Position numbers and translations under genes: made by a program
Origin: Haliotis asinina
Lineage: Eukaryota > Mollusca > Gastropoda > Lepetellida > Haliotidae
NCBI RefSeq assembly: GCF_037392515.1
Contig: NC_090283.1
Coordinates: 35,232,249-35,296,248, forward strand
Length of the DNA: 64,000 nucleotides
Reading direction: 5' to 3'
Shown here: positions 2,836 to 28,927 of the stretch, in pieces
How the letters are laid out: every line of letters starts with the position of its first letter
Numbering within the stretch: the stretch's first letter is position 1
The notes under the pieces: model-generated
The model's database searches: none
Told to the model about the DNA's origin: nothing
The model's input: only the letters and a program-made list of their open reading frames with translations

Positions 2836-3383
2836 TAACTCTGTCACAGGTGTTGTTTTGACCAACTACTAGTCTTTTGACAGGTATACCGTCGCTTATT
2901 CTATCACAGGCGTTGTTTTGACCAACTGGTCTTTTGACAGGTATACCGTCACTTATTCTATCACAGGCGTTATTTTGACCAACTGCTAGTCTTTTCACAG
3001 GTATACCGTCACTTATTTTATCACATGTCTTGTTTTGACCAACTGCTAGTCTTTTCACAGGTATACCGTCACTTATTCTATCACAGGTGTTGTTTTGACC
3101 AACTACTAGTCTTTTGACAGGTATACCGTCGCTTATTCTATCACAGGCGTTGTTTTGACCAACTGGTCTTTTGACAGGTATACCGTCACTTATTCTATCA
3201 CAGGCGTTATTTTGACCAACTGCTAGTCTTTTCACAGGTATACCGTCACTTATTCTATCACAGGTGTTGTTTTGACCAACTACTAGTCTTTTGACAGGTA
3301 TACCGTCACTTATTCTATCACAGGTGTTGTTTTGACCAACTACTAGTCTTTTGACAGGTATACCGTCACTTATTCTATCACTT
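2836..3383 (-). repeat. 57/60-bp minisatellite, about nine units
   Basis: Tandem units contain AGGTATACCGTCACTTATTC followed by TATCACAGGYGTTGTTTTGACCAACT. Most units are 60 bp and two are 57 bp (the CTA triplet before GTCTTTT is missing), so all lengths are multiples of three. The minus strand stays open across the array, reading repeats of GQNNACDRISDGIPVKRL. Adjacent blocks repeat the same order of unit variants, suggesting duplication of several units at once. An ORF over an in-frame array is expected by chance once one unit is open, so this is called a repeat and not a gene. Confidence 0.85.
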
Positions 3384-14544: not shown

Positions 14545-16778
14545 CTATGGTAAGAAGTTCGAGGTCAAGACTGACAACAATCTTATAATGTATGTGCTGA
14601 CATCCGCCAAGCTCGATGCTACTGGTCACCGATGGCTAGCTTCCTCATCAACAAATGATTTCATCATCACTTACCAAGCTGGAACCATCAATATGGATAC
14701 TGATGGATTATCAAGAAGGCCAGACTACACCATTAACCAAGAGACGCACACACAGCCAACATTTGTCAAGGTCATCTGCCAGGTCCACCAGACTCCTTGC
14801 ATAGCAGCCGAGAGCCAATCTTTCAATGAGGAAGATGTATGTCCTGATAATGTTTCGCTGACACCAACCTCACTGTCCTGGAAGAAGGAGCACCTCAGTG
14901 ACAAGCATTTCAAGCGCGCTCTCCATCTTGTCAAGCAAGGTCAAAAACCAACAGCACCCCAACATTCACTGGAGAATCCTGTTGTCAGAAGAGTAATCAA
15001 AGACTGGGACTGATTATCAGTCAAGGATGGGATTTTGCACAGACAAATCAAAGGCTCTGATGAATTGGAACAGCAACTTGTCTTACCCTCTCATAAGATA
15101 CCAGATGTACTGAAAGCCCTCCACGGTGACTCTTGACATCAAGGACGAGACAGAACCTATTATCTAGCTAAGTCAAGGTTCTTTTGGCCTTGAACGACCG
15201 TGGACGTGGAGCAATATGTGCTGTGGAAACTGCATCAAACAAATGTCCGACACTACAGTGAAAGCTGCACCTTTACTCAGCATCAAGTCATCAGAAGCCA
15301 TGGAAATGTGTGCTTGGATTATCTGAAACTTGAGGAATCAAAAGGAGGCAATGAGAATATTCATGTGATAACAGACCATTTCACCCGTTATGCAACCGCC
15401 CTCCAAACTCACAACCAATCTGCAAGAGGTTTGTTCGATAGCTTCCTTGTCCATTATGGTTTCCCAGTCAAACTTCATAGTGACCAAGGGAGAAACTTTG
15501 AGGGAGAAATCATCAAGGAACTGTGTCAGTTGACCGGAATCAGGAAGACCATAACAACGCCATATCATCCACAAGGGAATGGTATGATTGAGTGGTTTAA
15601 CCAGACTTCAATGAAGATGTGGATGATATGGCGTTGTTATGGTCTTCCTGGTTCCGGATTGCGGTCCAGAGTCTGAGAAAGAAGCTACATTTTGCCTACA
15701 ACATTGCCTCTGAGGAATCCAAGAAAGCTGGTCATCGCCACACACAGATCTATGACAAGAAAGTAAGAGAATCACTTCATTGATCTCACTTCTTTGACAG
15801 AGTGTTAGTGTACCTGTTGGACTCACAGGAAGAAACAGACTTGCTTACATTTGGAGAAAGGAAGACTACATCATCATTAAACAGCCCAATGAAGATATTC
15901 CTGTCTACACTGTAAAGCAAGAGAGTGGTAAGGGGCCAGTGAGGGGCCAATCTGTTTCCCTACAGCCAGCTCCACTTACACAACGAAACCGTAATTACCA
16001 ATGCAGCAATAAGTCTGTTTCCCTCCGTGTGAAGGAGTAAGAACCTGTAGATGGGAAGTTAGTTTAAGGCCAAGCAAGCAAACAGTTTCACTTTGAAATT
16101 CAGTCAGGAAGCATGTGCATTCAGCACTTTCATTGTACTATCTATACTCCTCCGAATGTGCTTTTTTCTGTTTTCTCCGAGTATACATAATACATGTTAT
16201 GCATGTAACTTAAACCTTACTTTGAAAACACCTCCCAAGTGAGACCCGGCTGATCAGTGGAGTTTACGCTCAATAACTTTCCTTACATATGACGAGCTCA
16301 ACTTACATGCACAGAACATTGCTAGAACACCATATTATCATTACAGAACACCTTATCATGGCAGAAAACTTTATCAACATTCTCCAGTCATCAGCAAAGA
16401 AACTGAAATACACTGAGTTACCTTTACGGGATTGACGTGTAGTTCCATAAAATCACAATGTATTTCCATGAGCCCTCTAGTTTCACAAATGTATAACAGA
16501 ACGTAGAATATGTGCAGGGTGTGGGAGGTACTGTGTATGCACTATGCACTCACTACTTTGAATACGTGCGTATGGTCTCACCTCTACCTCTTACCTGTAA
16601 CAATCACCTTCAAGTGGTTTAAGCCAGAAATTGGCCTTACACCATACCACGTGACATTCTGATTATGGCACGTGCTTTACATGTAGTCTACTGTGATGCA
16701 ATGACTGAAGAATATTGATTGTTGTTACACAAAATGACTGACCCTCTTAGTCACTTCAGAAAATTACTTAGTCCTTTC

Positions 16779-19175: not shown

Positions 19176-19292
19176 CTAAGTATCAACCCACAATTTTTCG
19201 ATAGTCTTATTTCTTGCATCTTCAATGGTTTGCTTCACAATGGCATACAGTTCACTGTGGAGATCCTCTATACTCCTGTCAGCATCAATCCT
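19176..19292 (-). CDS. DTYMK: DTYMK exon 5 (C terminus and stop)
   Basis: Begins after TGTTTCAG and encodes [20 protein letters not shown] onward to KLWVDT, then TAG at 19178-19176. It has 38 codons plus stop and enters in phase 0. It corresponds to the human KMVDASKSIEAVHEDI...LGELWK region, the C-terminal helices of the kinase. Confidence 0.94.
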   Translation of the reverse strand, partial: RIDADRSIEDLHSELYAIVKQTIEDARNKTIEKLWVDT

Positions 19293-22200
19293 CTGAAACA
19301 GCAAACAAAATGAAAAACATTACATGTGTCGCAGTCTAATCAGGACATGACCGTCTGCCAGTGTTATCAATTGTTACTCTAAAGGACATGACCGTCTGCC
19401 AGTCTTATCAGTGGTTACTCTATAGGACATGACCATCTGCCAGTGTTATCAATTGTTACTCTACAGGACATCACTGTCTACCAGTCTTATCAGTGGTTAC
19501 TCTATAGGACATGACTGTCTACCAGTCTTATCAGTGGTTACTCTATAGGACATGACTGTCTGCCAGTCTTATCAGTTGTTACTCTATAGGACATGACTGT
19601 CTGCCAGTCTTATCAGTGGTTACTCTATAGGACATGACTGTCTACCAGTCTTATCAGTGGTTACTCTAAAGGACATGACCGTCTACCAATCTTATCAGTG
19701 GTTACTCTATAGGACATGACTGTCTACCAGTCTTATCAGTTGTTACTCTACAGGACATGACTGTCTACCAGTCTTATCAGTTGTTACTCTATAGGACATG
19801 ACTGTCTACCAGTCGTATCAGTGGTTACTCTACAGGACATGACTGTCTACCAGTCTTATCAGTGGTTACTCTACAGGACATGACTGTCTACCAGTCTTAT
19901 CAGTTGTTACTCTACAGGACATGACTGTCTACCAGTCTTATCAGTTGTTACTCTACAGGACATGACTGTCTACCAGTCTTATCAGTGGTTACTGTACAGG
20001 ACATGACTGTCTACCAGTCTTATCAGTTGTTACTCTATAGGACATGACTGTCTACCAGTCTTATCAGTTGTTACTCTATAGGACATGACTGTCTACCAGT
20101 CTTATCAGTGGTTACTCTATAGGACATGACTGTCTACCAGTCTTATCAGTGGTTACTCTACAGGGCATGACTGTCTACCAGTCTTATCAGTTGTTACTCT
20201 ATAGGACATGACTGTCTACCAGTCTTATCAGTGGTTACTCTATAGGACATGAGCATCTACCAGTGTTATCCCTTGTTACTCTATAGGACCAGAACTTCAG
20301 TGGTACATTATACACATTAAGACTTGAAGAAAATCTTTCCAATCATTAGATGCTTGCCTGCCAATTTTCATCTTGCAATTTTTCAAAGTTTTCAGCAACC
20401 CTTTTCTGAAAGTCCTCCTGCTCATATCTCTCCCCACCAAATCCAGCTCGCTTCCCAGCAGCTTCAGGGGTTAAGGTCATATACAACACTTTGTCTGGGC
20501 GGGGAAGTCCAACATCTGGCTGCTTGCACCACTCTAAGGTAAACCCCTGACAAGGACAAAACAAAACTAGAACATCTCTGTAGTGGACACAGGATGAGTA
20601 CATTCACTGTTCACTCCTGTTAATGACATTTCTGACAGGAAATTAATTAACAGTTTAAAAGTTTATATGAAACCAAGGAAAAATTACATTGAATTTCTTT
20701 GATCATCTCATGAGGATAATCAATGAATACCTTTTTGGCTGCTGTGAATGCCACACCAGAAAATGCATATCTGTCAACTATCAAGGTTGTGCCTTCATTC
20801 AATAACTGGTACATGTCTTTTCTGAAAAATGAAGCCACAGCAATATTAGCCCACTTTGATATTCAGTTGCCACAGAGGAGATCCACTTCAACTTGATAGT
20901 GACAATTTACAAACCAAGTAAAATGTGGAATGTCCATGTGGCCCCTCATTCACGTGTGAGACACATCTGGGCCAACAAAACCAATGCTTGTCAACTTTGT
21001 TTATGTCACTTCACCATGAGATGGATAACACTAACAGCAAAATGATATTTGGAAACTTGACCACTCCCTTGTCACTATGACCAATCAATTTTCAAATTGT
21101 GAATCCCTAAATGTATCTGTGAAATGACTTGTGGAATGAACATGTTCACCCATCACAATCATTTCACTGACAGTGTGACACTCTAATACAAGTATGTTGA
21201 ATCCTTCCTAAAAAAAATTCAGATTGATGTGCAAAGATGAGGACATACACACACTCCCATCATGTGAGGTGAGGACTTACACACACTTCCATCATGTGAG
21301 GTGAGGACTTACACACACTTCCATCATGTGAGGTGAGGACTTACACACACTCCCATCATGTCAGGTGAGGACTTACACACACTTCCATCATGTGAGGTGA
21401 GGACTTACACACACTTCCATCATGTGAGGTGAGGACTTACACACACTTCCATCATGTGAGGTGAGGACTTACACACCCTTCCATCATGTGAGGTGAGGAC
21501 TTACACACACTCCCATCATGTGAGGTGAGGACTTACACACACTCCCATCATGTGAGATGAGGACTTACACACACTTCCATCATGTGAGGTGAGGACTTAC
21601 ACACACGTCCATCATGTGAGGTGAGGACTTACACACACTCCCATCATGTGAGGTGAGGACTTACACACACTTCCATCATGTGAGGTGAGGACTTACACAC
21701 ACGTCCATCATGTGAGGTGAGGACTTACACACACTTCCATCATGTGAGGTGAGGACTTACACACACATCCATCATGTAAGGTGAGGACTTACACACACTC
21801 CCATCATGTGAGGTGAGGACTTACACACACTTCCATCATGTGAGGTGAGGACTTACACACATTTCCATCATGTGAGGTGAGGACTTACACACACTCCCAT
21901 CATGTGAGGTGAGGACTTACACACACTTCCATCATGTGAGGTGAGGACTTACACACACATCCATCATGTAAGGTGAGGACTTACACACACTCCCATCATG
22001 TGAGGTGAGGACTTACACACACTTCCATCATGTGAGGTGAGGACTTACACATATTTCCATCATGTGAGGTGAGGACTTACACACACTCCCATCATGTGAG
22101 GTGAGGACTTACACACACTTCCATCATGTGAGGTGAGGACTTACACATATTTCCATCATGTGAGGTGAGGACTTACACACACTCCCATCATGTGAGGTGA

Positions 22201-25200
22201 GGACTTACACACCCTTCCATCATGTGAGGTGAGGACTTACACACACTCCCATCATGTGAGGTGAGGACTTACACACACGTCCATCATGTGAGGTGAGGAC
22301 TTACACACACTCCCATCATGTGAGGTGAGGACTTACACACACGTCCATCATGTGAGGTGAGGACTTACACACACTTCCATCATGTGAGGTGAGGACTTAC
22401 ACACACTTCCATCATGTGAGGTGAGGACTTACACACACTCCCATCTGAAACATGTCTGGTGAGGCCACACACTCACTCCCATCTGAAACATGTCTGGTGA
22501 GGCCATACACTCACTCCCATCTGTAGCATGTCTGGTGAGGCCATATGCACACTCCCATCTGAAACATGTCTGGTGAGGCCATACACTCACTCCCATCTGT
22601 AGCATGTCTGGTGAGGCCATACACTCACTCCCATCTGAAACATGTCTGGTGAGGCCATACACTCACTCCCATCTGTAGCATGTCTGGTGAGGCCATATGC
22701 ACACTCCCATCTGTAACATGTCTAATGAGGACTTACACACACTCCCATCTGAAACATGTCTGATGAGGACTTACAAACTCCAATCTGTAACATGTCTGCT
22801 GGGGACATACACACACTCCCATCTGTAACATGTCTGGTTTGACTTACACACACTCCCATCTATTAGCTGAGAAGAGCAGATGTACAGCATGGTCATCTAA
22901 TTCTGCCTTCTTCTGTAGGTATCCATTAATCATCTCACCAATGACAGTTGTCCTGTCTGAAACATAGACCAGGAGACTTCTGTACAAGTGTCCTCAGATA
23001 CAGATCTGTGAACTTCATCATCATCACCACCATCATTGTCGTCATCAATAAGCTGGAACAGATACACTACTGCTACAACACTGCAAACGGTTCAGAGCGT
23101 TATCTTCTTACCAAACTCACCTCACTTAATCTTCTACAAAGCAAGTAATCTCTCGCAACATACTACAGTATACACTCTCACAATTTAAGTAATACAATAC
23201 TTTGTCTATTTATTCTCAAAAACATTTTCAAAATGTTTATGTGCAACACTTTCATTTCCTCCCAATCCTGCATTGCCATTAACTAATATCACACTTATAT
23301 ATGTTAACATATGTTCAGCACCAAATCTGAATTAATGACATGAGGCCCATATCACTGCCTTACATTTAGTACTTTCAGCTGTTAAGTACTGTACTTGGAG
23401 TATGTATGTCTAGTAGATGTAAGTTCTGGAAATGAACGGTAATGTACTTGTATGGTATAACAGTTATCTGGAGTATTGCATTATGTGATTAGAAGAGAGG
23501 TTGCTGCCAGGTTTTACAACATTGACAAAGTTAACTGTGACCTTTCTCGGGATTAGGAAATAACCTTTTCAAAAGAGACAAAATGTAACTCATTAAAGTT
23601 CTATTTGTTGGATTGTTTCTCACGAAGGCTGAAGACACTATCCTCCATGTTCCGAATGCATATCATACCACAGGAGACAAGTGTGTTGCCACAAGTGTGA
23701 ACCAGCTATTCCAATCTGAACTTGTGTGTCATGTCTATCTATCTTGTAATTCTGAGCTGCGACATATACAGCTTCTGCTAACCCAACTAACTAACAGTTA
23801 CTAGCCTTTAGTGATTGTCTTACTTAATGAATACCATTGCAATACATTGCTCTTACATATCATGCATGTCAGTTAAGCTTGGGTGTAGTAATGGCAATGT
23901 TGGTATTTTTAGACTTTCGAACAGTTTCAGACTGCCAGGAAAACGCATGAAACAAGTTTGCGGTACATCGGTTTAAGCTGTAATCATGGATGGTCACAGA
24001 AAACCCAACATTAACGATGGATCCAGATGGCTTCATCGTAAATGTTGACATTTTTGAGACAGTGTATGAACTCACAATTCACAGCGTTATTTGCTGTATG
24101 TTTTGAAATGTGAAGATCAAAAATTACTGGGAGTACTGAATTTCAAAAACTGCATATTAATGATCACTGATATCAATTTTCCCAAGAAATCCTTAGTGGT
24201 AATTCTGAAACGTTGCCAGTTAACCTAGAATCAGTTGGAGGTGCACTTTCCGCCATATTGGATAGTGGTTACAAAATCAGGAATCTCATTACAAATGATC
24301 TGTTGTCAACAATACCAACTGTCTGGATAAAATGAAATGAAAGATATTGGGAATGAAAACGTACGCTGTGTTCGAAATATATACAAGGAAGAATTCTGAT
24401 TTTACACTGCGTGGCATTTTCTAAAATTCAGATAGTCAGAATCATTCTGATTATCTACATCTTATAGAATTATTCATTAACAATCCCTGCAAGGGAAGAG
24501 TCCTAACAAAATTCTGTGTGCCTTCTGAATCCACTATTTTGTTGGAAGTCAATCACTGATTGTGATGTCATACAAAATTGTTGTACATATTAAACAATTT
24601 CTTTGAGGTGAAGCTCCATGACATGTGGTCAAATGGACCTGTCTTCATCCTGACTACACACTGCTAACATGTTCTGATGACTAGCATCTTCTGACCCAAT
24701 CCTACGTTTGTCTTACCTATTACCATAACTCATACACTGATTGTATTTCTGTAATTTGGAGAGCATGCAATGTAATCAAGATGTGTCAGGTTCGCTTATG
24801 GAATGAATAAAGTTATTCCTTGGATCCACTTCAGAAAGTCCCTTAGCTTACATCCCATTTCAGGATGAATATCGTTTAGTATGTTACTCACCACAAAACT
24901 GGATTTACTCTGCTCACATCTTCACCGAACTCTCTCGCAAACCCACCACAATGAATCTACTCACTGGAAAACACAGACTGTTGTCACACAGGACAACAGT
25001 TACATATACCAGCTTAGATGAAGTATCTACTGAACATAACTGGGCATATGTCTATCGGTCCCTGAACCACATTATTAAATGTCTAGATTCTATCAGGTTG
25101 GGAATTCCTCATCTCACTAGGCCTCCTTTTCAGTTAAAATCAGCTTATTTGTTACTATCAAAATTATTTATATATTCAGAGTCTAAATGTTAGTCTACAT

Positions 25201-28200: not shown

Positions 28201-28927
28201 TTGTTGCTATAACTTTCGTCTGTCTTAAATTTAATATTTGCATTTTGTTTTAATTTTAAGATGTACACTGACTTCATTATTTTTCATTCATAACGGGGTT
28301 TTTTATACCACTGGCAGATGAGTAAACTTCAAGGTACTTAAATTTGTTTTCACAATAACGAAGTCAAATGACTTCATCTTTGTTGATCAGTCTACACATA
28401 AACTATCAATTGCGCATATGGGGGGCGCTGCAGAGATCACGAACCAGTCACGAATTCTGGGATATCATCCAGGTACTCACAGGAGAAAAACAATGACAAA
28501 AGAAACAACGGAAATTGCTCCGCATCTGTGCCCCTTTAAGAGGGAGTGGGCATCATGAATTTTGTACAGGGCATATGTTCTGGGGGTTCAGCGAGTTTGT
28601 ACACAAAAACACTAAAAATCCAATTTAGAGAATGTGTGTGGGAAGTGTCACTGATTTTGGACCTGACGACATGCGGGTGGTGGGGGTAGGGGTGGGGGTG
28701 TCAGTTACACGTTTGTACATAAATGTTGTGTGTGTGTGTGTGTGTCGCACAAGTTTCACCTTCAAAATCGTCATTAACACCCCAGGATCAGTGTGCTTAC
28801 CTGGAAATTTCATCAGCTTCACTGGTATACCCTCTTCCGTGAGTTTCTGCAGCAGTTTATTACTCTGGGTTGTTTTGCCACACCTGTCACACCCTTCAAA
28901 CACGACCAACGCCCCTCTGTCTCTCAT
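19176..28927 (-). CDS. DTYMK: Thymidylate kinase (dTMP kinase), complete, five exons
   Basis: Phosphorylates dTMP to dTDP with ATP, the step joining the salvage and de novo thymidine routes; the vertebrate enzyme is cytosolic and nuclear. CDS exons, 5' to 3': 28927-28801, 22956-22848, 20821-20731, 20546-20358, 19292-19176. They give 210 codons plus stop, against 212 in human. Visible landmarks are the P-loop [10 protein letters not shown] (residues 10-19), the [11 protein letters not shown] segment, [12 protein letters not shown], the eukaryotic lid [11 protein letters not shown], and a C-terminal KLWVDT. Phases across the introns are 1, 2, 0 and 0 and all agree. Introns 1-3 are GT-AG; intron 4 uses a GC donor. 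The start at 28927 is chosen because RGALVVFEG then sits near the N terminus as in human; in-frame ATGs also occur at 28942 and 28978. Introns 2 and 4 hold minisatellites and intron 1 a DNA transposon. Confidence 0.96.
19342..20289. repeat. 41-bp minisatellite in DTYMK intron 4
   Basis: About 23 tandem copies of a 41-bp unit containing AGGACATGACTGTCTACCAG then TCTTATCAGTGGTTACTCTA. Variants alternate at a few sites (CAGTTG/CAGTGG, CTATAGG/CTACAGG, TCTACC/TCTGCC). The array fills nearly all of intron 4, between the GC donor at 20357 and the exon 5 acceptor at 19293. No splice-site-like sequence is repeated here, unlike intron 2. Confidence 0.97.
20358..20546 (-). CDS. DTYMK: DTYMK exon 4 (lid region), GC donor
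   Basis: Begins after TTGTCAG and encodes 63 codons from [18 protein letters not shown] to EKLQDENWQ. It includes the lid [11 protein letters not shown], which closes over ATP. The exon ends GGCAG followed by GCAAGC, a GC-AG intron donor. No GT is available at the position required to join NWQ to exon 5 in frame. Confidence 0.93.
20731..20821 (-). CDS. DTYMK: DTYMK exon 3 (dTMP-binding DRY motif)
   Basis: A 91-bp exon after TTTTTCAG, ending AAAAAG before GTATTC. It completes the split Val codon from exon 2 and encodes [20 protein letters not shown] and [10 protein letters not shown]. The DRYxxSGVAF segment is the thymidylate-kinase signature that contacts the nucleotide. Confidence 0.95.
21236..22440 (-). 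repeat. 32-bp minisatellite copying a splice donor, DTYMK intron 2
   Basis: About 38 tandem copies of a 32-bp unit. On the minus (sense) strand each reads ATGGGAGTGTGTGTAAGTCC then TCACCTCACATG. The first part repeats the end of DTYMK exon 2 and its donor, GATGGGAGTGTGTGTAAGTC at 22860-22841. Nearly every unit keeps GTAAGT. Unit variants recur every six units (192 bp) near 21767-22150, a higher-order structure. The array lies wholly in intron 2, downstream of the real donor. Confidence 0.97.
22441..22847 (-). repeat. 38-bp minisatellite next to exon 2 donor, DTYMK intron 2
   Basis: About ten copies of a longer, 38-bp version of the intron 2 unit, directly behind exon 2. Sense units read ACATGTTTCAGATGGGAGTG followed by TGTGTAAGTC or AGTGTATGGC. 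Several therefore hold an acceptor-like TTTCAG or TTACAG, 12 bases, and a donor-like GTAAGT or GTATGG. The 32-bp subfamily lacks the acceptor-like part and probably arose from this form. Confidence 0.93.
22848..22956 (-). CDS. DTYMK: DTYMK exon 2
   Basis: A 109-bp exon after CTATGTTTCAG, ending GGGAGTGTGT before GTAAGTC. It supplies the second part of a split Asp codon, then [20 protein letters not shown] and [15 protein letters not shown], and the first two bases of a Val codon. Human has RSTEIGKLLSSYLQKK...[11 protein letters not shown] here. The donor lies in a GT-rich run, so neighbouring GT pairs could compete; GTAAGTC is the only one that keeps the frame and fits the donor consensus well. 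Confidence 0.93.
22957..25257 (-). other. DTYMK intron 1, 3' part
   Basis: Intronic sequence, AT-rich, with no recognisable repeat or nested gene. A 68-codon frame at 23869-24075 and an 80-codon frame at 24951-25193 have no recognised domain. Confidence 0.6.
25258..25350 (-). mobile_element. SINE 3' fragment in DTYMK intron 1
   Basis: A diverged 3' end of the long SINE family containing CAGCAATATTCCAGCTATAT and GGCGGCAGGCT, truncated on the 5' side. Confidence 0.65.
25351..26550 (-). other. DTYMK intron 1, middle part
   Basis: No supported feature. Confidence 0.55.
26564..26784 (-). mobile_element. 5'-truncated SINE in DTYMK intron 1
   Basis: The copy lacks the 5' end of the family. It is flanked by an 11-bp duplication with one mismatch, AGCAAACCTGA at 26553-26563 and AGTAAACCTGA at 26785-26795. 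The (GTGA)n tail is longer than in the other copies. Confidence 0.88.
26875..28535. mobile_element. Non-autonomous Kolobok-like DNA transposon in DTYMK intron 1
   Basis: A 1661-bp element with terminal inverted repeats: AGGCGCACTGATGCGGAGC at the left and the complement of AGGGGCACAGATGCGGAGC at the right, with similarity continuing about 15 bases inward. It is bounded on both sides by TTAA (26871-26874 and 28536-28539). TTAA duplications with termini starting in purines are characteristic of Kolobok; piggyBac also uses TTAA but its ends normally begin CC. The interior shows no transposase, so it would need a partner to move. Confidence 0.8.
28723..28745. repeat. (TG)n microsatellite
   Basis: A short GT run in DTYMK intron 1, about 55 bases past the exon 1 donor. 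Confidence 0.8.
28801..28927 (-). CDS. DTYMK: DTYMK exon 1 (P-loop)
   Basis: Encodes [20 protein letters not shown] and [20 protein letters not shown] then FP, ending TTTCCAG before GTAAGC in phase 1. The Walker A loop GCDRCGKT binds ATP phosphates. The same frame extends upstream through ATGs at 28942 and 28978, which would add the basic leader MIQFWRLIRNRRMFSLT. Confidence 0.94.

Follow-up and report, generated by a model that had tools for sequence, protein, structure and literature searches.

A 49-unit minisatellite overlapping the exon 2 donor of an abalone DTYMK gene

How does the spliceosome choose one 5′ splice site when dozens of equals follow directly behind it? The question is raised by DTYMK, a thymidylate kinase gene of Haliotis asinina, in the 64-kb stretch of DNA analyzed here (contig NC_090283.1, positions 35,232,249 to 35,296,248; hereafter, the window). 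The end of exon 2, together with its donor, forms the first unit of a 49-unit minisatellite. As a result, 44 GTRAGT decoys (R, A or G) lie directly behind a conserved exon, and for some of them the predicted U1 pairing is stronger than at the true site. The spliceosome's pick among many equal donors is a standing question, which an arrangement of this type makes directly measurable.

This kind of arrangement is already known, from the "mirages" of amphioxus. New here are another animal, several genes, and many more copies than in the amphioxus globin cases. We consider it likely that a tandem duplication across the exon 2/intron 2 boundary gave rise to a mirage-type array, which would be tolerated because the first donor stays in use.

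The exon 2 boundary and its array

Coordinates are positions in the window, the gene lies on the minus strand, and genome searches covered a single 1.14-Gb assembly. Five exons assemble to a single frame of 210 amino acids. The protein matches solved thymidylate kinases in PDB (best E 1.5e-67; 1.6e-67 for 1e2d, which we take to be the human enzyme) and the Pfam family Thymidylate_kin (1.3e-48). Across the genome this family has three matches with E up to 0.1, all inside DTYMK. The features that bear on the exon 2 boundary are as follows (a slash marks a splice junction):

22848..22956, minus strand: DTYMK exon 2, 109 nt, ending TGTGT/GTAAGT
22842..22847, minus strand: putative true donor GTAAGT of exon 2, placed from sequence by frame and gap-free alignment
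22844..22846, minus strand: in-frame TAA reached when the assembled frame is extended past this donor
21235..22860, minus strand: whole boundary-seeded minisatellite, 49 units, 1626 bp; its intronic 1613 bp make up 80% of intron 2
22446..22860, minus strand: exon-proximal block, units 1-11, 36-38 bp each, with 3 GTAAGT and 5 GTGAGT
21262..22445, minus strand: distal block, units 12-48, each exactly 32 bp long, GTAAGT in 37 of 37
21235..21261, minus strand: terminal unit 49 (GTATGT), beyond which the intron continues with different sequence

Among four GT candidates for the end of exon 2, only those at 22847 and 22853 keep the frame. With 22847, the alignment to solved kinases crosses the exon 2/3 junction without a gap (over SANRWEQVPLIKEKL). 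Because this donor both keeps the frame and aligns gap-free, the exon end at 22848, assumed in the initial annotation of this stretch, appears well supported.

That annotation also described a repeat array adjoining exon 2 and overlapping its end. The array is real. Tandem Repeats Finder reports 37.8 copies of 32 bp at 21238-22445, and periods of 76 and 114 bp (two and three 38-bp units) at 22413-22861; splitting at the GATGG motif delimits 49 units, boundary unit included, spanning 22860-21235. The many head-to-tail copies, of a unit within the range of about 10-100 bp, identify it as a minisatellite. Moreover, the exon-intron boundary itself was amplified, as had been proposed: the boundary makes up unit 1 and lies in register with the rest of the array, which supports a duplication that spanned it. 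Unit 1 comprises the last 13-14 bases of exon 2, the donor, and the head of the intron (AGATGGGAGTGTGT/GTAAGTC). The intronic array contains 15 exact copies of the last 13 exon bases and three of the last 14; the remaining units diverge from them. Exon tail and later unit agree at 15 of 18 exon-side positions.

The donor counts call for some revision. GTAAGT is present in 40 of the 49 units; five others (units 6, 7, 8, 10, and 11) carry GTGAGT, located six bases upstream of the usual GTAAGT place; and units 2, 5, 9, and 49 are without any GTRAGT. The 45 GTRAGT units thus comprise one true donor and 44 decoys, and the earlier statement that every unit carries a donor does not hold. The description "near-consensus" suits the intron side, but on the exon side TGT replaces the usual AG; the true donor matches the donor consensus at six of nine positions. 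The antisense strand of the array holds no GTRAGT. Between the donor and the far end of the array there are 45 sites, whereas 200 single-base shuffles yield 1.1 on average; chance is excluded as the source of this abundance.

Arrays at other exon ends and in other animals

Other exons, one of NDUFS2 among them, show this arrangement too, which supports the mirage-type reading. Two samples of donor-word arrays were examined by reading their upstream flanks: 14 arrays on contig C1 among the first 100 of 2,148 AGGTRAGT-triple matches, and 10 CAGGTAAGT arrays among the first 100 of 234 triple matches. By a criterion applied partly by eye, 11 of the 24 adjoin an apparent exon end, five of these with protein matches.

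At NDUFS2 (L080, C1:11395182-11396082; PDB 4e-15, Pfam 1.7e-8), a 44-bp array repeats the exon end and donor. The exon match ends at C1:11395714, and the array starts with the donor at 11395715. The next exon match starts at 11396453, 738 bp beyond the donor, and resumes the profile at position 212, where the previous match ended. The array sequence was read for its first 368 bp (to 11396082). The other four exon ends with protein matches belong to GIDA (L070, Pfam 1.1e-18), presumably MTO1; Hira (L076, Pfam 7.9e-12); RIM-binding protein 2 (L074, PDB 2.1e-10, with Pfam SH3_9 at only 0.01); and an acyl-CoA-dehydrogenase-type kinase domain (L069; PDB putative acyl-CoA dehydrogenase 1.2e-13, ACAD11 3.1e-6, Pfam APH 0.0054). 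Donor use across the arrays behind the NDUFS2, Hira, and GIDA/MTO1 exons would measure the effects of position and exon definition.

These five, together with L071 and L075 (open frame and exon-side similarity, no family), make up the seven of 14 AGGTRAGT arrays that look exon-seeded. L082 is possible, and at the remaining six no exon end was seen in the upstream flank, the Pfam search of their frames covering L077. In the CAGGTAAGT set, inspection by eye suggests exon seeding for L098, L100, L105, and L106 and leaves L097 and L101 in doubt; no exon end was seen in the upstream flanks of the other four of the 10 arrays. L098 gives a weak Pfam match (DUF4487, 0.0058). Peptides of L071, L075, L082, L097, L100, L105, and L106 matched no Pfam family, and that of L100 had no match in PDB. 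Identity between exon tail and later unit is 37/44 for L069, 34/41 for L098, 25/31 for L076, 22/27 for L080, 15/18 for L075, 12/15 for both L071 and L100, and 8/10 for L074. For L070 (4/5), L105 (7/8), and L106 (0/0) this script measure is uninformative, and the arrays were judged by eye across small gaps.

Two arrays of the CAGGTAAGT set have features of their own. L100 (C2:44581346-44582246) is short, with units like TTTTCTTTGACAG/GTAAGT that resemble recursive splice sites in tandem, in which no exon separates acceptor from donor. L101 (C2:71626440-71629856) extends for about 3.4 kb in 32-bp units, and is thus longer than the DTYMK array.

Acceptors were sampled likewise, in the first 14 acceptor-word arrays (three near-identical C1 arrays counted once; two arrays reach the end of the fetched stretch). 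One is boundary-seeded: L113 (C2:20224034-20224734) repeats TTTACAG/CCTGGATGAC, that is, acceptor plus exon head, upstream of the real exon, which matches potassium channel subfamily T member 1 (KCNT; PDB 7.7e-8). Judged from these flanks, the DTYMK array is one of several apparently boundary-seeded arrays in the genome, not a one-gene oddity.

Are donors preferred targets? Minisatellites are numerous in this genome. Genome word counts tally matches rather than arrays, and settle nothing on donor-specific amplification. Triples compared with those of the mirrored word number 22,892 versus 37,697 for GTAAGT; 2,148 versus 1,767 for AGGTRAGT; 234 versus 39 for CAGGTAAGT (about 60 of the 100 listed coming from one array); and 452 versus 688 for the acceptor word TTTTRCAG. 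Single AGGTRAGT words number 82,247 versus 100,004. With counts going both ways, and the CAGGTAAGT excess largely one array, a general genome excess of donor-word arrays is not clear. At 30 RRM exon loci (95.5 kb, some overlapping), no array with a period of 10-200 bp and at least three copies lies within 400 bp of the matched exon. A mirror-word control took one flank from each of the first 14 listed arrays. Fifteen of 60 edge open reading frames, from 10 of the 14 loci, were compared with Pfam and gave only low-complexity or weak matches (PT repeat 0.017; Atrophin-1 4.7e-5 and DUF3915 on an RERERE stretch). At L083, what we take by eye to be a C-type lectin exon, without a Pfam match, lies near but outside its array.

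The donor test, judged partly by eye, and the mirror control do not follow the same criteria, and the control samples are too small; together with the word counts they give no evidence for a mechanism that targets donors, or for amplification of donors above other DNA. If real donors make up perhaps one third or more of AGGTRAGT sites, which is a guess, random seeding would be expected to yield roughly the observed seven of 14. On the simplest reading, tandem duplications arise anywhere in the genome, at boundaries as elsewhere, and persist at boundaries because the first donor still works. A much broader proposal, that boundary-seeded donor arrays are pervasive (hundreds of genes) and a main route of intron growth, with dozens of equal or stronger downstream donors tolerated almost freely, seems to us doubtful, at somewhat less than an even chance. 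If true, the genome would be a natural library for measuring 5′ splice site choice.

Amphioxus mirages are tandem repeats of exon-intron boundaries, on both boundary sides, that show length instability (PMC3087553). The genes concerned include Adh3 and the globins BflGb6 and BflGb9; troponin C and PGBD5 are also cited, and the PGBD5 paper adds further lancelet genes (PMC3902484). The DTYMK array shares with mirages a repeat unit that contains the boundary, and the retention of splice signals in many units but not all. Likewise, arrays are found in several genes of this genome, at 5′ and 3′ boundaries. The dimensions differ: BflGb6 has three and six copies of 150-160 bp in two haplotypes, and Adh3 units are 10-72 bp, versus 49 copies of 32-38 bp in DTYMK. 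Splicing and length instability have been examined in amphioxus, whereas the DTYMK array is known from the sequence of one assembly. In amphioxus, Adh3 data and reverse-transcription polymerase chain reaction by the authors of the globin paper suggest that regular splicing is undisturbed (PMC3087553), and PMC3902484 also states that mirages do not interfere with it. The globin paper proposes mirages as a source of new introns. In the open-licence literature, as far as its available text goes, mirages are named only for amphioxus; the arrays described here suggest that another animal has them too, in several genes, and that they can lengthen introns.

Other repeats provide looser parallels. The minisatellite of the human interferon-induced gene 6-16 (G1P3/IFI6), to go by the title of a 1995 report by Turri, has multiple splice donor sites; its units are said to be 12 bp, with several donors reportedly used. 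Unlike these, the DTYMK decoys cannot give a longer protein. In human segmental duplications, tandem repeats at boundaries can alter splicing and form novel introns; these lie in recent paralogs, average 30-bp units in four copies, and are about half within coding exons (PMC2812944). A worm minisatellite is linked to alternative splicing (PMC4039745). The TSSK1-like gene of Pacific abalone contains, in intron 3, a 27-bp minisatellite whose repeat number varies between individuals (PMC6905558). It is thus intronic and length-polymorphic; overlap with an exon end, as in DTYMK, is not stated in the text available. Among the relevant matches in open-licence literature, none reports a boundary-spanning array in an abalone or other mollusc, which is no proof of absence.

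Origin of the array and choice among its donors

The exon letters of the repeat unit encode R-W-E, common to solved thymidylate (TMP) kinases. The next two codons under the repeat encode C and V; V is shared with the solved kinase, C is not (the kinase has Q). Because the protein constrains R-W-E, copying most likely ran from exon to array. The converse, that a pre-existing minisatellite spread to the exon and converted its end to array sequence, could account for the C and V codons, which are the GTGTGT part of the repeat, and for the C that the solved kinase lacks. It fits poorly with the common R-W-E and with recurrence of the arrangement at other conserved exon ends of different sequence (NDUFS2, 22/27; the acyl-CoA-dehydrogenase-type exon, 37/44), and we give it very little credence.

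The nine 38-bp proximal units have a mean pairwise identity of 89%, versus 96% for the 37 distal units. The latter fall into 10 unit types, with a weak higher-order pattern of three and six units and repeated runs of unit types, a trace expected of slippage or unequal exchange. This suggests older units at the exon and recent growth within the intron. A duplication spanning the boundary would have started the array, and slippage or unequal exchange would have carried it to 49 units. Selection on the protein would hold the first unit in place while growth went into the intron, making the distal 32-bp block youngest.

Introners, dispersed copies of one element, resemble the array in carrying splice signals; they differ by their dispersal. 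A 449-base array piece searched against the genome gave, among the best candidates, five matches, all within the intron 2 array. A search for the 20-base boundary word that allowed two mismatches gave 44: 39 in the array and five single, scattered ones. At the sensitivity of these searches, no dispersed copies of the DTYMK repeat were found elsewhere in the genome; it is a tandem repeat at one locus, and an introner in the sense of near-identical copies in many genes is rejected.

What distinguishes the true donor? Pairing was computed against the U1 end sequence, and accessibility from predicted RNA structure. The true donor and each GTAAGT decoy are predicted to pair equally (−5.4 kcal/mol), and the GTGAGT sites better (−8.4, with an exon-side bulge). 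Accessibility of the 9-base donor window is 0.029 for the true site, similar to that of the 39 GTAAGT decoys (median 0.034, range 0.003-0.159). Neither U1 strength nor a structure hiding the decoys is therefore accepted as the selector, and the choice would have to depend on position or exon signals. Only the true donor is so placed that it closes a 109-nt exon. Use of a decoy would instead give exons of 182, 220, 290 nt, and so on, up to 1676 nt. Any such exon would include the TAA at 22846-22844, ending the protein after 79 of 210 residues. Isoforms extending into the array, which the initial annotation had envisaged, are thus possible as truncated messages; a longer protein is not, because reading past the true donor meets this stop at once.

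We expect that exon definition would retain the first donor, which closes a normal-sized exon beside that exon's own 3′ splice site, and that decoys would be removed along with the intron. Slight leakage to the nearest decoys (the 182-, 220-, and 290-nt exons) would yield truncated, unproductive messages, probably degraded by nonsense-mediated decay (NMD). Several points weigh against this account of a tolerated boundary duplication: the predicted U1 pairing and accessibility do not favor the true donor; use of the first donor is deduced from sequence; and the 6-16 minisatellite is cited, in a yeast paper, for "interfering with gene splicing" (PMC3618361).

A rival account is an array that serves as an unproductive-splicing device, in which frequent decoy use, truncation, and NMD tune the DTYMK level, and copy number sets the fraction. 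The equal pairing and similar accessibility of GTAAGT decoys, the TAA added by any decoy use, and the reported effect of 6-16 on splicing are all in keeping with it, as is the donor intact in every distal unit: seven of 32 columns vary in the distal block, none inside the 9-base donor window. The chance of such avoidance is 0.07, however, which falls short of significance, and the units cannot be counted as independent; eight of 11 proximal units (2, 5-11) lack GTAAGT, though five have GTGAGT at another place; and amphioxus mirages are said not to disturb splicing. We consider such a device unlikely, and the same 0.07 and the same proximal units lead us to reject selection that keeps the decoy donors. 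Five of the seven variable columns in this block (21262-22445) are adjacent (columns 6-10). Still less probable, in our judgment, is an intronic platform for the U1 small nuclear ribonucleoprotein or a UG-repeat protein, a role proposed from sequence. U1 guards against premature polyadenylation, and CELF/TDP-43-like proteins bind UG repeats. The strand bias of GTRAGT, in nearly every unit and never antisense, and the TGTGTGT run in 33 of 37 distal units would fit such a platform, but genome-wide, GTAAGT triples do not outnumber those of the mirrored word, which indicates no general enrichment of such sites in arrays. Duplication of the boundary, tolerated through its first donor, remains the preferred account.

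The rest of the gene and window

The remaining DTYMK features, with exons placed from the assembled frame, are these:

28801..28927, minus strand: DTYMK exon 1, coding part from ATG, donor CAG/GTAAGC; placed by frame and match to solved thymidylate kinases
20731..20821, minus strand: DTYMK exon 3
20358..20546, minus strand: DTYMK exon 4, with a putative GC-type donor CAG/GCAAGC
19176..19292, minus strand: DTYMK exon 5, up to the stop
19342..20289, minus strand: second DTYMK minisatellite, 41 bp × 23, 89% of intron 4, overlapping no exon end

The exon 4 donor (20352-20357) appears to be of the rarer GC type, as suggested by the frame and the next exon. The intron 4 minisatellite starts 68 bp after exon 4, and is not boundary-seeded. 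Its variable columns (14 of 41) are spread out, in contrast to those of the intron 2 distal block. Elsewhere in the window, a third minisatellite occupies 2840-3381 (60 bp × 9), and open frames at 14588-15676 resemble, by eye, a retroelement integrase region.

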